From NCBI GenBank assembly GCA_017410375.1, contig JAFQQW010000059.1, positions 62,001 to 126,000 of the forward strand: a stretch of 64,000 nt of DNA, in the 5' to 3' direction. The position numbers and the translations under genes were made by a program. The notes beneath the pieces were generated by a model. It had not been told where the DNA came from, made no database searches, and saw only the letters and a program-made list of their open reading frames with translations. Shown here piece after piece: positions 56,966 to 62,504 of the stretch. Origin of the DNA: Clostridia bacterium. GTDB taxonomy: Bacteria; Bacillota; Clostridia; RGIG6154. Within the stretch, counting starts at the first letter, position 1. Each line of letters begins with the position of its first letter.

Positions 56966-57826
56966 TTATTCCTCCACAAAGCCCTGTACCTTTGCAGCTT
57001 TTACGGTATTTTGCATCAGCATTGCAATGGTCATGGGTCCTACACCGCCGGGTACGGGTGTAATGGCACCTGCCACCTCTTTTACGGTCTCAAAATCCAC
57101 GTCGCCGCAAAGCTTGCCGTTTTCATCTCTGTCCATACCCACGTCAATGACAACCGCACCGGGTTTTACCATGTCAGCGGTCACAAACTTCGGAATACCC
57201 ACAGCCGCAACCAAAATATCTGCTTTTTTGGTCACTTCAGGCAGATTTTTGGTTCTGGAATGACAAATGGTTACCGTGCCGTTCTGGTGCAGCAAAAGCA
57301 TCGCCTGGGGCTTGCCCACAATGTTGCTTCTGCCGATAACCACACATTCTTTTCCGCAGATTTCAATGCCCGATTCCTTAATCAGCTCCATCACGCCTGC
57401 AGGAGTACAAGGCACAAAATCAAAGTCGCCAATCATAATTTTACCCACGTTTACGGGATGGAACGCATCCACGTCCTTTTTGGGGTCGATAGCATACAAA
57501 ACAGTCTTTTCGTCAATATGCTTCGGAAGCGGTAACTGTACCAAAATACCGTTTGTGGTCTTATCTTCGTTTAAGGTTTTTACCAATTCCAAAAGCTCTG
57601 CTTCAGTGGTTTCTGCAGGTAAAGCATATTTTACGGATTCAACACCGATTTCCGCACAAGCCTTTTCCTTGTTGCGCACATACACCTGAGAAGCTGGGTC
57701 TTCACCGACGATGACCACCGCGAGCTTTAGGCTGACGCCCTTTTCCTTTATCTTTTGTACCTTTTCTGCCAGTTCCGCCTTGATTCTTGCCGAAACCGCC
57801 TTGCCGTCCAGAATTTTTGCTGTCAT
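56966..57826 (-). CDS. folD: Bifunctional methylenetetrahydrofolate dehydrogenase/cyclohydrolase
   Basis: A 286-residue Fol[39 protein letters not shown] with the catalytic Yxxx[12 protein letters not shown], and [13 protein letters not shown]. It interconverts one-carbon folates. AAAGGAGG lies 8 bases before ATG 57826. Its first 125 bases are overlapped, in another frame, by the end of the upstream radical SAM gene. Confidence 0.97.
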
Positions 57827-59636
57827 TTTTGTTTCCTCCTTTAATGGGTCGGAACGGAATCAGACAATGCTTGTCAAACCCAATCAAATCTGTTCTGCCC
57901 GCCTTTATCAATGCTTTTTTTACAATTTCATAATTTTCGGGTCGTCTGTATTGCAAAAGCGCCCGTTGCATTTTCTTTTCTTCATAGGATTTGGGTACAT
58001 ACACCTTTTCCATGGTTCTCGGGTCAAGCCCCGTAAAGAACATACAAGTCGAAAGTGTACCGGGAGTGGGATAAAAATCCTGCACCTGCTCGGGTGTGTA
58101 CTTGATATCCCGTAAATACTCTGCCAGCTCAATGGCATCCGTAAGCTCTGAGCCGGGGTGACTTGACATTAAATACGGCACTACATACTGCTCTTTACCC
58201 AGCTGTTTATTGACTGCCCTGTACTTTTCACAGAAGGCATCAAACACCTTTCTGCCGGGCTTACCCATGTAGTAAAGCACCCTGTCCGACACATGCTCGG
58301 GCGCAACCTTTAACTGTCCCGACACATGGTTTTCACAAAGCTGATAGAAAAACGAATCATCTTTATCGTAAATCAGGTAATCGTACCGGATACCTGACCG
58401 AACAAACACTTTTTTCACCTTTGGAATGTCTGCAAGCTTTCGTAAAAGCTCTGCATATTCCTTGTGGTCCACCCGTAAATTTTCACATGGTACCGGGAAT
58501 AAGCATTGCCGTTTGGGACAATTCCCCTTTGTTCCCTGCTTTTCGCAGGACGGTGCTCTGAAATTCGCGGTTGGTCCGCCGACGTCATGGATATATCCTT
58601 TGAATTCAGGGTCCCAAACCATCTTTTCTGCCTCACGCAGAATAGATTGCTGACTGCGCGATGTGATAATTCTGCCCTGGTGAAAGGTCAGTGCGCAAAA
58701 AGAACAGTTGCCGTAACACCCTCTGGAAGAGGTTAAGCTGAACTTTACTTCCTTTATGGCAGGCACACCACCTGCTTCCTCGTACATGGGGTGATAGGTT
58801 CCCATATACGGCAAGCCGTACACCATGTCCATTTCTTTTCGGGAAAGGGGTTTGGCAGGCTTGTTCTGTACCAGATAATAATCCCCGTGGGGCTGAATCA
58901 CCGTGTTGCCCGTAAAGGGATCCTGATTCTGATACTGTATCATAAAGCTTTCGGCATATTTCCGTTTATCCTTGGAAACCTCGCTGAACGAGTGGCATGC
59001 AAAGCATTTTTCATGCGGAATGCTTTTGGTTAAATAGCAGGTGCCGGGAATGTCTGTAATTTCATGCACATCAGTACCCGAGGACAGTCGTTTTGCAATT
59101 TCGACCATCTGGGTTTCGCCCATACCGTATACCAGAAGGTCAGCACCCGAATCCACAAGCACCGAACGGCGCACCTTATCGTCCCAGTAATCGTAATGGG
59201 CAAATCGGCGGAGGGATGCTTCAATCCCGCCAATAACCACCGGCAAACCCGGGAACGCTTCCCTTGCCCGGTTGGCATATACAATTACCGCTCTGTCAGG
59301 GCGCTTGCCCGCCACACCGCCGGGGGTGTAGGCATCGTCACTTCTGCGTTTTTTAGAAGCGGTATAGTGGTTAACCATAGAGTCAATGTTTCCGCTTCCG
59401 ATGAACACGCCGTATTTCGGCACGCCCATCACTAAAAAATCCTCGGTAGAGCGCCAGCAAGGCTGTGCCACAATGCCCACCTTAAAGCCTGCATGCTCTA
59501 ACACTCTGCCGATAATAGCCGTACCAAAAGAAGAGTGATCCACATACGCATCACCCGTAACAAGCAGAAAATCCAGTTGTTCCCATCCCCTGTCCTCCAT
59601 ATCCTTACGGCAGACAGGTAAAAATGTATTTTTCAT
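57702..59636 (-). CDS. YgiQ-family radical SAM protein with a C-terminal extension over folD
   Basis: A 644-residue YgiQ-type protein: N-terminal B12-binding-like domain ([21 protein letters not shown]), [21 protein letters not shown], the radical SAM triad CYGNCSFC, and the family end KHCLIPFRP. About 43 extra residues, basic and Gly-rich ([27 protein letters not shown]), follow [13 protein letters not shown]; they are encoded by the folD ribosome site and the first 125 bases of folD. ATG 59636 follows GGAGG; a longer frame into the repeat at 59751 is rejected. The function of the family is not settled. Confidence 0.9.
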
Positions 59637-59750
59637 AATGCCTCCGAAATATTTTATGTCTGTTTTATCCTGACGGATATAATCAATTTTCAGACTTTTC
59701 CTTGAAGAAACGTTACCATGAATTGGCTTACACATTTCAGCAAATCCCCA

Positions 59751-60006
59751 TTGCGACACATAAGGTTTAGATGCAGTCTATTTTAAGGTATAAAGGCTGT
59801 ATAATTTAGATGCCTTTCCAAAGGCTTCTCCTTGAGGAGAGGCTCCGCCGTAGGCGGTGGTGAGGTGTAGATTGCGAAAGCAATCGTTATTTTTCCACCT
59901 CATCCGAGTTGCTTCGCAACCCACCTTCCCCTCAAGGGGAAGGCTTTTTTGAATTCGACTTTTTTCGACAATCTTTACAAATTCGTGTTAAGTTAGAACT
60001 AAAAAT
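59751..60006. repeat. Intergenic element 1: shared ends with a CACCT-word hairpin array
   Basis: The left motif (59751-59775, ending ACACATAAGGTTTAGATGCA) and right motif (59985-60005, GTTAAGTTAGAACTAAAAA) enclose hairpins GCCTTT/AAAGGC, TCTCC/GGAGA, CCGCC/GGCGG, GATTGC/GCAATC, GTTGC/GCAAC and CTTCCCC/GGGGAAG. Between them recur GGTGAGGTG and its complement-like CCACCTCATCC and CCCACCTTCC. The right motif ends one base from the stop codon of the gene at 60007. No gene is inside. Confidence 0.8.
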
Positions 60007-60768
60007 TCATTTTGATATAATATATACAGAGTTATTTTCCCACTTCACATCATATCCAAAAAATTCTGCAACCTTTCTAACTGGAATCATTGCCAATTCG
60101 TCAATAACCTGATATCCAACATCTATCGGAATAAAAGAATTATTTTCATATACACGATCATTATATATAACCAACGATTCATCTCCCTGTCTTAGAATAA
60201 CACGGTCACCACCCCAATTAACCTCTATTCCCAATGCCTCTCCTACAACTTTAGCAGGAACAAGTGTTCTGTCATTCGTAATAACAGGGCTGTTATAAAA
60301 TCTGATTTCTTCATCGTTCAAATACACTTTAGTATCATTTTTTGTTTTATATTTTAACACAATATCTTCTAAATTCCGGCATTCTTCTATTGAAAATTCA
60401 TAGGATTTATCTGGTGTTCTACACAAATATTTTTCTTTTGAGGATAAGTGAAAACTAATAACCATTTCACCATCAACATAAATATTCAACGATTCTCCAC
60501 CAGATGCAACCCATCCACCATTAAACGGAGTAAGATTCATGTTTGAAAGACCGTTAAGAATATCTTCTATCTCAGCAGAATCCGTGGTGACATATTTATA
60601 ATATCCAGCCATTAACGGATCAGAAAACTCTCCGCCATTATAATATGAAACCTTAATTTCATTACAGGATTCAATATCAACATTATAATATTCATAATTT
60701 TCTGCAAAAACCAATCGGATTGAAAAAACAACCGACAAACAGAGCATTAAACTAATAATCCTTTTCAT
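60007..60768 (-). CDS. Secreted protein with copper-amine-oxidase N-terminal-like domain
   Basis: A 253-residue AT-rich gene. Signal peptide: about residues 1-22 (SLMLCLSVVFSIRLVFAEN). A unique region (25-150) precedes a two-part copper-amine-oxidase-N/stalk domain: ITNDRTLVPAKVVGEALGIE at about 165-184 and DELAMIPVRKVAEFFGYDVKW near the end, which is the same module as in the 1584-residue protein at 30733. It has no catalytic domain. It stands between elements 1 and 2 and shares no spacing with neighbours, as a cassette would. Confidence 0.82.
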   Translation of the reverse strand: MKRIISLMLCLSVVFSIRLVFAENYEYYNVDIESCNEIKVSYYNGGEFSDPLMAGYYKYVTTDSAEIEDILNGLSNMNLTPFNGGWVASGGESLNIYVDGEMVISFHLSSKEKYLCRTPDKSYEFSIEECRNLEDIVLKYKTKNDTKVYLNDEEIRFYNSPVITNDRTLVPAKVVGEALGIEVNWGGDRVILRQGDESLVIYNDRVYENNSFIPIDVGYQVIDELAMIPVRKVAEFFGYDVKWENNSVYIISK

Positions 60769-60806
60769 TAAATCTCATCCTTTCGACAATATTCGACATA
60801 TCCATA

Positions 60807-60873
60807 TTTTGAGGCATAAGGTTTAGATGCAAACCTTTTTGGTGTCAAGTTTGTGTCGAGTTAGGAACAAAAA
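60807..60873. repeat. Intergenic element 2 (minimal, 67 bp)
   Basis: Left motif 60807-60831 (TTTTGAGG variant of the first bases, then CATAAGGTTTAGATGCA), right motif 60853-60873 (GTGTCGAGTTAGGAACAAAAA). The interior is 21 bases and includes AAGGTTT/AAACCTT (a hairpin with the left motif) and a partial repeat GTGTCAAGTT of the right motif. It ends one base from the stop of the gene at 60875 and starts 38 bases before the start of the gene at 60768. Confidence 0.82.
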
Positions 60874-60874
60874 A

Positions 60875-61330
60875 TTATTGATTTGAATTAAATTTATCTA
60901 TAATTCTATACCTAAAATAATTTGCTTGTCTTTCAGATGTTTTATCGTCTTGTTCGCCACCCAAAACCCATTGAAAATAATGTGATAATTCATGCACTAA
61001 TGAAGAAATAACTTGTTCATAAAGTTCTTCTCCATCATACTGTTGATATAATTCTGCATTTATTTTAGATGGAATACGAATATATGGCTCTTTATCTTCA
61101 AACCATCTGAAACTACCATATGCCCACTTACCATTTAGAAGTTTAACTTTTTCACAGTTTTTGATATAAACTGTTAGATGAACAGGAAAAACATATGTAT
61201 GCCTTAACCACTTTGCAAACATTTTATATTTTTGTTTTAAACTTTCATCTATACCTTTTTCATAACGAAATGAAATGCCATTATTGGAACATTTGGCTTT
61301 ATCTATTTCAAAGGTTTGCCACAAATTCAT
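60875..61330 (-). CDS. Small HExxH metallopeptidase-like protein
   Basis: A 151-residue AT-rich protein, not assignable to a named family. H113-E-L-S-H117 (SLVHELSHYFQWV) with E133 in TSERQANYF looks like a zincin site. No signal peptide. The N-terminal half has no obvious motif. It is bounded by elements 2 and 3. Proteins of this size and type are common as cargo in gene-cassette arrays and mobile islands; no function can be assigned beyond probable zinc binding. Confidence 0.72.
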   Translation of the reverse strand: MNLWQTFEIDKAKCSNNGISFRYEKGIDESLKQKYKMFAKWLRHTYVFPVHLTVYIKNCEKVKLLNGKWAYGSFRWFEDKEPYIRIPSKINAELYQQYDGEELYEQVISSLVHELSHYFQWVLGGEQDDKTSERQANYFRYRIIDKFNSNQ

Positions 61331-61376
61331 ATTCCCACCCCTCTTTCATATTTCGTCATTTTTCGACATATTTATA

Positions 61377-61445
61377 TTGCGATACATAAGGTTTAGATGC
61401 AAACCTTTTTGATATCTGTTCATATCAAATTATAACTAAAAACAT
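61377..61445. repeat. Intergenic element 3 (minimal, 66 bp)
   Basis: Left motif 61377-61401 (TTGCGATAC then ATAAGGTTTAGATGCA), right motif 61422-61442 (a degenerate ATATCAAATTATAACTAAAAA). The same AAGGTTT/AAACCTT hairpin as element 2 is present. It begins 46 bases from the start codon at 61330 and ends 19 bases from the GrpB stop at 61462. Confidence 0.78.
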
Positions 61446-61461
61446 ATAAATAAATTGGAAT

Positions 61462-61977
61462 TTATTTCAAACCGCATTCTTTATACAGTTCTTCAATGCA
61501 TGGTGATTTATACTCCATGTATCCGTCTATATCATTTAGAAATAGCTCGGCGGCTTTTTCTTTTATCAAACTGTATTTTCTAACCGCTTCGGGATTGCTT
61601 CGGAGAAAATCTCTGAATGCAATATGACGGTGCAATTCTTCCGAGTATTTCGGACATACATACAAGTGATGCATTTGCAGATGCTCTTTGCCTGAATACT
61701 TAAATGCCTCTCTATCCTTAATACCAAGATTACCCTCGTGGATATATCCGATTGCTTTCAAGCCGTCAACTAACGCAGCAAACACCGAGTAATCCCCAAT
61801 AATCACATCAATATCAATGCAAGGTTTAGCAGACATTCCTTCGACAGAGGTGCTTCCGACGTGTTCAACACCGATGATTAAATCGCCAATTGCTTCTTCA
61901 ATCTCACCCTTTATTTTTTCAAAAGCTGATTGCCATGCCGCATCGTATGGCAGTACAACAACCTTTCTTGTTCTCAT
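61462..61977 (-). CDS. GrpB-family nucleotidyltransferase-like protein
   Basis: A 171-residue GrpB/UPF0157 protein: VVVLPYDAAWQSAFEKIKGE at the start, VEHVGSTSVEGMSAKPCID with the nucleotidyltransferase GS and D-x-D (IDIDV), and HLYVCPKYSEELHRHIAFRDFL. ATG 61977 is used because AGGTGA lies 5 bases upstream; the longer frame begins inside the left motif of element 4. The family is frequent in mobile and cassette contexts; substrate unknown. Confidence 0.88.
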   Translation of the reverse strand: MRTRKVVVLPYDAAWQSAFEKIKGEIEEAIGDLIIGVEHVGSTSVEGMSAKPCIDIDVIIGDYSVFAALVDGLKAIGYIHEGNLGIKDREAFKYSGKEHLQMHHLYVCPKYSEELHRHIAFRDFLRSNPEAVRKYSLIKEKAAELFLNDIDGYMEYKSPCIEELYKECGLK

Positions 61978-62032
61978 ATAGTTCACCTGCAAATTCTTAT
62001 TTATCTGTTCGATATTTTTCGACATATCCATA

Positions 62033-62258
62033 TTGCGACACATAAGGTTTAGATGCAACTTGTTTTAGCTAAATTTTGCAACAAGTTGCAAAGCTAAATT
62101 ATTCCATCTTACTCCATAGCTAAATTACTCCTTTGGAGTAGCTAAATTAAATTCGCTTTAAGCGTGCAAAGCACATTTAGCTGCCGCAAGGCAATTTAGC
62201 TGAACTTGTTCAATTTAGCTCGCGATAGCGAATTTAGCTGCGTTGCTATGCAACGCAA
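62033..62258. repeat. Intergenic element 4: hairpin array with the word AGCTAAATT
   Basis: The left motif (62033-62057) is followed by four copies of AGCTAAATT (62067, 62092, 62118, 62140) and then four copies of its complement AATTTAGCT (about 62174, 62193, 62212, 62231). Short, mutually different hairpins fill the gaps: TTGCAAC/GTTGCAA, ACTCC/GGAGT, CGCTT/AAGCG with GTGC/GCAC, GCC/GGC, GAAC/GTTC, CGC/GCG, and GCGTTGC/GCAACGC. It ends at the next left motif (62259), so no gene and no right motif stand between. The word copies can pair across the centre into a branched stem. Confidence 0.88.
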
Positions 62259-62504
62259 TTGCGACACATAAGGTTTAGATGCAAACCAAGTTTAATGAAT
62301 TGACAACTGTTGTTGTCATGAATTGGCGTCCCACCATGAATTCTCGCTTTGCTCCATGAATTGAATCGCCTTTCATGCACTTTAGTGCAATTCATGAGCC
62401 GTCAGGCTCAATTCATGAAATCGTAAGATTTCAATTCATGCCGCAGGCAATTCATTGCGGTTGAGTATCAACCGCAATAATTCACATCAGGTCAGGAACA
62501 AAAA
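62259..62504. repeat. Intergenic element 5: hairpin array with the word ATGAATTG
   Basis: The left motif (62259-62283) is followed by ATGAATTG at 62295, 62318, 62336 and 62356. Then come CAATTCAT copies at 62388, 62409, 62432 and 62448 and a final AATTCA at 62479. Hairpins: GACAAC/GTTGTC, GCAC/GTGC, GAGCC/GGCTC, GAAATC/GATTTC, GCC/GGC, TGCGGTTGA/TCAACCGCA. Hairpins of the left half are more degenerate. The right motif (62483-62504) touches the stop codon of the gene at 62505. This array has the same architecture as element 4 but another word. Confidence 0.88.

Follow-up and report, generated by a model that had tools for sequence, protein, structure and literature searches.

The minus strand of positions 59750-62504 in the window, as we call the whole 64,000-nucleotide stretch of DNA that was analysed, carries an array of four genes that all run in one direction, with repeated elements in between. 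Read along the genes, an element begins right after the stop codon with a conserved 3' end named RIGHT (TTTTTAGTTCTAACTTGACACGAACT) and continues through a 26-base A core (TGCATCTAAACCTTATGTGTCGCAAT, gene strand) and a leader (ATATGGATATGTCGAATATTGTCGAAAGG) to the next start codon; all the features that follow lie on the minus strand. The first unit of the array has its RIGHT (62480..62504) past the stop codon of an exo/endonuclease-phosphatase gene, and is followed by an A core (62258..62283), a gene-less cassette of ATTTAGCT palindromic repeats (62058..62257), which is also present in two other genomes (G138 and G064) and in C13 of the source genome, and a further A core (62032..62057). Then come the leader (62007..62024), gene (GrpB family, PF04229; 61462..61977) and RIGHT (61419..61442) of the GrpB cassette, an A core (61376..61401), and the leader (61351..61368), gene (151 aa; 60875..61330) and RIGHT (60844..60874) of a cassette for a HExxH protein, the whole unit of which (60811..61368) has a counterpart at L157:5727-6262 that extends from TGTCGAA to inside the A core. 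The next A core (60806..60831) precedes the leader (60781..60798), gene (253 aa, Cu_amine_oxidN1, PF07833; 60007..60768) and RIGHT (59982..60006, immediately past the stop codon) of the Cu-amine-oxidase-N cassette. This RIGHT forms a core-less junction of type C (59953-60006) with a 5' leader repeat (TGTCGAAAAAAGTCGAA, 59953..59970), beyond which lie a gene-less palindromic repeat module (59815..59950, with a 95% match in L031 of genome G056), one core of a second site type, B (GGCATCTAAATTATACAGCCTTTATA, 59789..59814), and the final A core (59750..59775), the fifth in the window, upstream of YgiQ.

The initial annotation had reported five left motifs, the A cores at 59750, 60806, 61376, 62032 and 62258, and four right motifs, and these are present as described, the right motifs lying 0-19 nt from stop codons and the leaders ahead of start codons; the B core, the C junction and the gene-less module flanked by the cores at 62032 and 62258 are additions to it. 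Its gene identities are confirmed by Pfam for the Cu-amine-oxidase-N and GrpB genes, while the HExxH protein belongs to no Pfam family. The AT-richness that it ascribed to the genes is clear for the first (32% GC) and for the HExxH gene (28% GC) against 44% for the window, and only slight for GrpB (40%).

The motif CATAAGGTTTAGATGCA occurs in five exact copies in the window, far above chance, since 0.22 matches would be expected even allowing three mismatches. The 17-base core, with five exact copies in the window, has 11 at six places in the source genome (2.77 Mb in 69 contigs). Searching the genome and its relatives for the end motifs with different genes between them, as had been proposed at the outset, was productive: The A core (23-mer, at most two mismatches) is carried by 31 of the 391 genomes of the class, in 22 of 222 genera and about 11 families, and the reversed-motif control retrieved no genome in the same class-wide search. 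Within a set of 60 relatives the A and B cores are present in the same 9, and a model of the core-less junction built from sequence alone matches, with E < 1e-8, at least seven further genomes of these families in which A is absent (G172, G181, G257, G287, G304, G305, and G379). The 26-mer retrieved 103 stretches from 84,980 named species genomes; the 80 titled loci listed are nearly all from Clostridia or Oscillospiraceae MAGs, with goat, sheep, deer, yak, and buffalo gut or rumen as hosts. One exception, titled Flavobacteriales, has its core 24 bases from the contig end and may be a misbinned contig. Five of six matches in viral contigs are chance occurrences inside genes, and the sixth is a real array beside phage genes; in that contig (L073:1-9853, IMGVR_UViG_3300029305_010879) the A core adjoins phage-like structural genes, identified by eye as terminase-like and others, with one secreted-type ORF between. 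The plasmid and phage records searched contained no match to the motif, Rfam recognized no relevant family in the array loci (its sole match being tmRNA, in four of them), and the literature searched by motif strings and by concept yielded no publication on the motif or the system. The assemblies compared are mostly fragmented MAGs with many arrays at contig ends, and cassettes were defined by fuzzy motif matching with set thresholds.

Junctions between cassettes fall into three classes, A, B and C, each with fixed spacing between the 3' end right past a stop codon and the leader pattern TGTCGAA N3 TGTCGAA ahead of the next start codon. The first TGTCGAA follows the A core by 16 nt in 66 of 86 cases and the B core by 7 nt in 30 of 33, and at C-type junctions it follows CTAAC by 26 nt in 34 of 56; since these class-specific distances are fixed, the A or B unit appears as a clean 40-nt addition to C. 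The junction of one and the same gene may be of type C in one genome and of type A or B in another, the difference being the 40-nt unit. CTAAC precedes the core by 32-34 nt in compact A elements. Positions 0-16 of the A core are 95-100% conserved, and the left arm AAAAAGGTTT is poorly conserved. The consensus is predicted to fold into a hairpin of approximately -9 to -11 kcal/mol that includes GACAC/GTGTC, with conservation on one side only. The complementarity of GCGACAC and GTGTCG, initially remarked upon for the two ends, does exist within the A core, but with a poorly conserved left arm its role in a hairpin is only putative. A is followed by B at about 40 nt 48 times and B by A twice, so that B is usually the final site of an array, on its 3' side. 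Element middles can contain palindromic modules of 180-240 nt bounded by A cores.

The longest ORF between cores lies on the element strand in all 116 intervals considered, and the 135 distinct cassette ORFs form 94 clusters with a median length of 172 aa. Those matched by Pfam include metabolic, transport, methyltransferase, Fic, and other genes, and several sites have no gene at all (e.g., L014). Could such elements be non-autonomous transposons of the mobile insertion cassette or palindrome-associated type, the leader and 3' core being transposon ends that insert beside existing ends with a transposase acting in trans? Mobile insertion cassettes, that is, passenger genes flanked by IS ends, are similarly mobilized in trans between conserved ends, and their hallmarks, as those of MITEs, are terminal inverted repeats, target duplications, and an autonomous parent element. 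The asymmetry of the ends, their presence also around gene-less palindromic modules and the hairpin-capable nature of the A and B units, of about 40 nt, would fit this explanation; yet the arrays seem to lack IS-like terminal inverted repeats, their junctions are fixed head to tail with constant spacing between units, and single insertions scattered in random orientation are not seen. Moreover, the array ORFs include no recombinase or transposase, and no autonomous parent copy, among the matches listed (the 25 commonest Pfam families per table), and overall we regard the transposon explanation as unlikely. The initial preference for cassettes over random MITE insertion has in fact gained strong support, from the fixed orientation and junction spacing and from the same gene-plus-element units recurring beside other neighbours in other genera and families, with breaks at the elements.

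This recurrence is most evident for eight cassettes that are common to different genomes with 89-95% nucleotide identity, in different genera or families and with unrelated neighbours. For example, a cassette of 852 bp is 95% identical between a genome of the source genus (G002) and one of another family (G047), the upstream site being A in one case and B in the other. In 33 homologous cassette pairs, most of which have unrelated upstream contexts, homology starts mostly at the first TGTCGAA or within about 10 nt before it, whether A, B or C lies upstream. At the 3' boundary (31 pairs) it commonly continues across the 3' end as far as the CTTATG of the core and then breaks; in the closest pairs identity spans RIGHT and the arm up to CTTATG, and the two bases that follow (TG or CC) differ in five of seven pairs at 95% identity or more. 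Both boundaries are seen in the HExxH cassette of the window, the alignment of which with its counterpart in a rumen Oscillospiraceae MAG (83% identity, 89% for the protein, other neighbours) covers exactly positions 61368 to 60811. At one chromosomal locus conserved over 5 kb at 93% between two species, the array content differs and the common flank begins exactly where the A core does. Other cassettes have the same gene with a different A, B or C, or a break nearer the ribosome-binding site, and consequently exchange is not confined to one base. An empty site was sought in G001, of the same genus, where YgiQ stands without an array, but the flanks are rearranged and no clean empty site is found.

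These breakpoints bear on the possibility that no dedicated enzyme is involved, and that RecA-type homologous recombination between common ends of 25-70 bp shuffles genes that arrived by ordinary transfer. In its favour, the A cores of different families are nearly identical, and no recombinase, tyrosine recombinases included, adjoins the arrays at any locus examined. However, the breaks cluster in a narrow zone despite conserved sequence on both sides, C-type junctions have little exact sequence in common, and homologous recombination leaves unexplained how identical ends arose directly at the stop and start codons of new genes; we consider it improbable that this process suffices.

Integrons are the main known system for capturing and lining up unrelated single genes, and the likeness to their attC arrays and CALINs is extensive: small unrelated genes, many of them orphan small ORFs, lie head to tail in one orientation; a conserved, structured site with a variable or hairpin-capable middle follows every gene at its 3' end; inserts vary; and there are gene-less and toxin-antitoxin-like cassettes, with exchange at the cassette boundary, which is here documented by comparison. 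It could be argued that the arrays are remnants of a true integron, a cluster of divergent attC sites that has lost its integrase. Nevertheless, none of the 31 carrier genomes has an integron integrase (TIGR02249) above the cut-off, the best score being 81 of 265 bits, and GTTRRRY, the partner of RYYYAAC in integrons, is found in the exchange zone of 6 of 167 junctions, where shuffling predicts 10.5, leaving the YYYAAC-like TTCTAAC at the 3' end as the only attC-like remainder. Further differences from integrons are an internal core, A or B, that hardly varies, the position of B mostly at the 3' end of arrays and the host range, ruminant-gut-type Clostridia as far as searched. Because IntI was not found and GTTRRRY is not enriched at the junctions, we do not file the system under integrons, as the initial doubt about attC had rightly anticipated; the remnant explanation is already disfavoured and seems very improbable. 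Looking for a tyrosine recombinase next to an array, as proposed at the outset, gave none: PF00589 genes are present in all ten carriers tested and none is near an array.

A further comparison is with pdif/Xer modules, to which the system may be related. In these, too, genes are bounded by short recombination sites and the modules bring no recombinase along; the A core half TTATGTGTCGC resembles an Xer arm by eye. The 28-bp dif-like sites of pdif modules often alternate in orientation, whereas here the cores within an array are in direct orientation, between single genes on chromosomes, and, judged by eye, do not seem to follow the dif arm-centre-arm layout over their whole length.

The sequence comparisons directly show that the ends are conserved, that orientation and spacing are fixed, that the same cassettes recur beside different neighbours and that breakpoints fall in the exchange zone. 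The explanation that we favour, with a probability of about 0.7, is a site-specific system of gene cassettes that behaves as an integron array does but has its own sites and a recombinase encoded elsewhere. Judged on this evidence, it is a mobile gene-cassette system and not a known integron. A cassette would start with a 5' leader, carry a single gene (or, in its place, a gene-less palindromic insert) and close with a 3' end, in which the conserved stretch right past the stop codon is usually joined by the 40-base hairpin-capable unit with the A or B core. Cassettes would join head to tail, and exchange would take place in the short stretch that separates the 3' unit of one from the first TGTCGAA in the leader of the next, presumably through conservative recombination by a trans-acting site-specific recombinase and a circular intermediate. 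The site could have an attC-like layout, with RIGHT, a variable hairpin-capable middle and TGTCGAA repeats inverted to TTGACA; alternatively, the A and B cores may be double-strand sites of a tyrosine recombinase, with arms around GCATCT. We propose more tentatively, at somewhat less than even odds, that this cassette system evolved independently as a second means of gene capture, with its own recombination sites and a putative trans-acting recombinase, and transfers genes across family borders in ruminant-gut Clostridia, at least 11 families being involved. If true, a large microbial habitat would have an unrecognized route by which genes are exchanged, one common in the Firmicutes of the ruminant gut; the junctions provide a natural set of sites for hunting the recombinase, and the arrays a way to test by comparison how new cassettes gain their ends.

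Arrays of different families lie near identical chromosomal genes and may have preferred positions. YgiQ-FolD genes are near arrays in the window (57702-59639) and at L095:5291-7986, and H+-pyrophosphatase genes at L083:8012-10100 and L085:11564-13658. The commonest cassette gene encodes a DUF559-type nuclease (PF04480), with 18 ORFs at 13 loci (including L028, L036, L069, L094, L115, L121, L143, L153, and L163). The gene-less modules of 181-185 nt may be deletion derivatives of this nuclease cassette, since both have a CCTCCC...GGGAGG hairpin. Toxin-antitoxin pairs are found as cassettes in large integrons, and a Phd-like antitoxin with Fic/Doc likewise forms a cassette in several genomes, at L154, L211, and L248 (and L089).

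One family of tyrosine recombinases of about 280 aa is enriched in carriers (21 of 31 vs. 39 of 360 other genomes), but was rejected as the cassette enzyme: It has its own inverted site pair directly downstream, with reversed centres, and adjacent genes for secreted proteins, as befits a phase-variation invertase. Its members include G000:C28:23893-24729 (L112:4884-5732) and those at L275, L288-L299, L302, and L307-L314. The first site, CCACATAAT-CGAA-ATTATGTKG, follows the stop codon and the second, with its centre reversed, lies 230-270 bp further on, often preceding a TetR-like regulator and large secreted proteins. The arrangement suggests that the recombinase and its inverted sites form a promoter switch for phase variation that is widespread in Clostridia.
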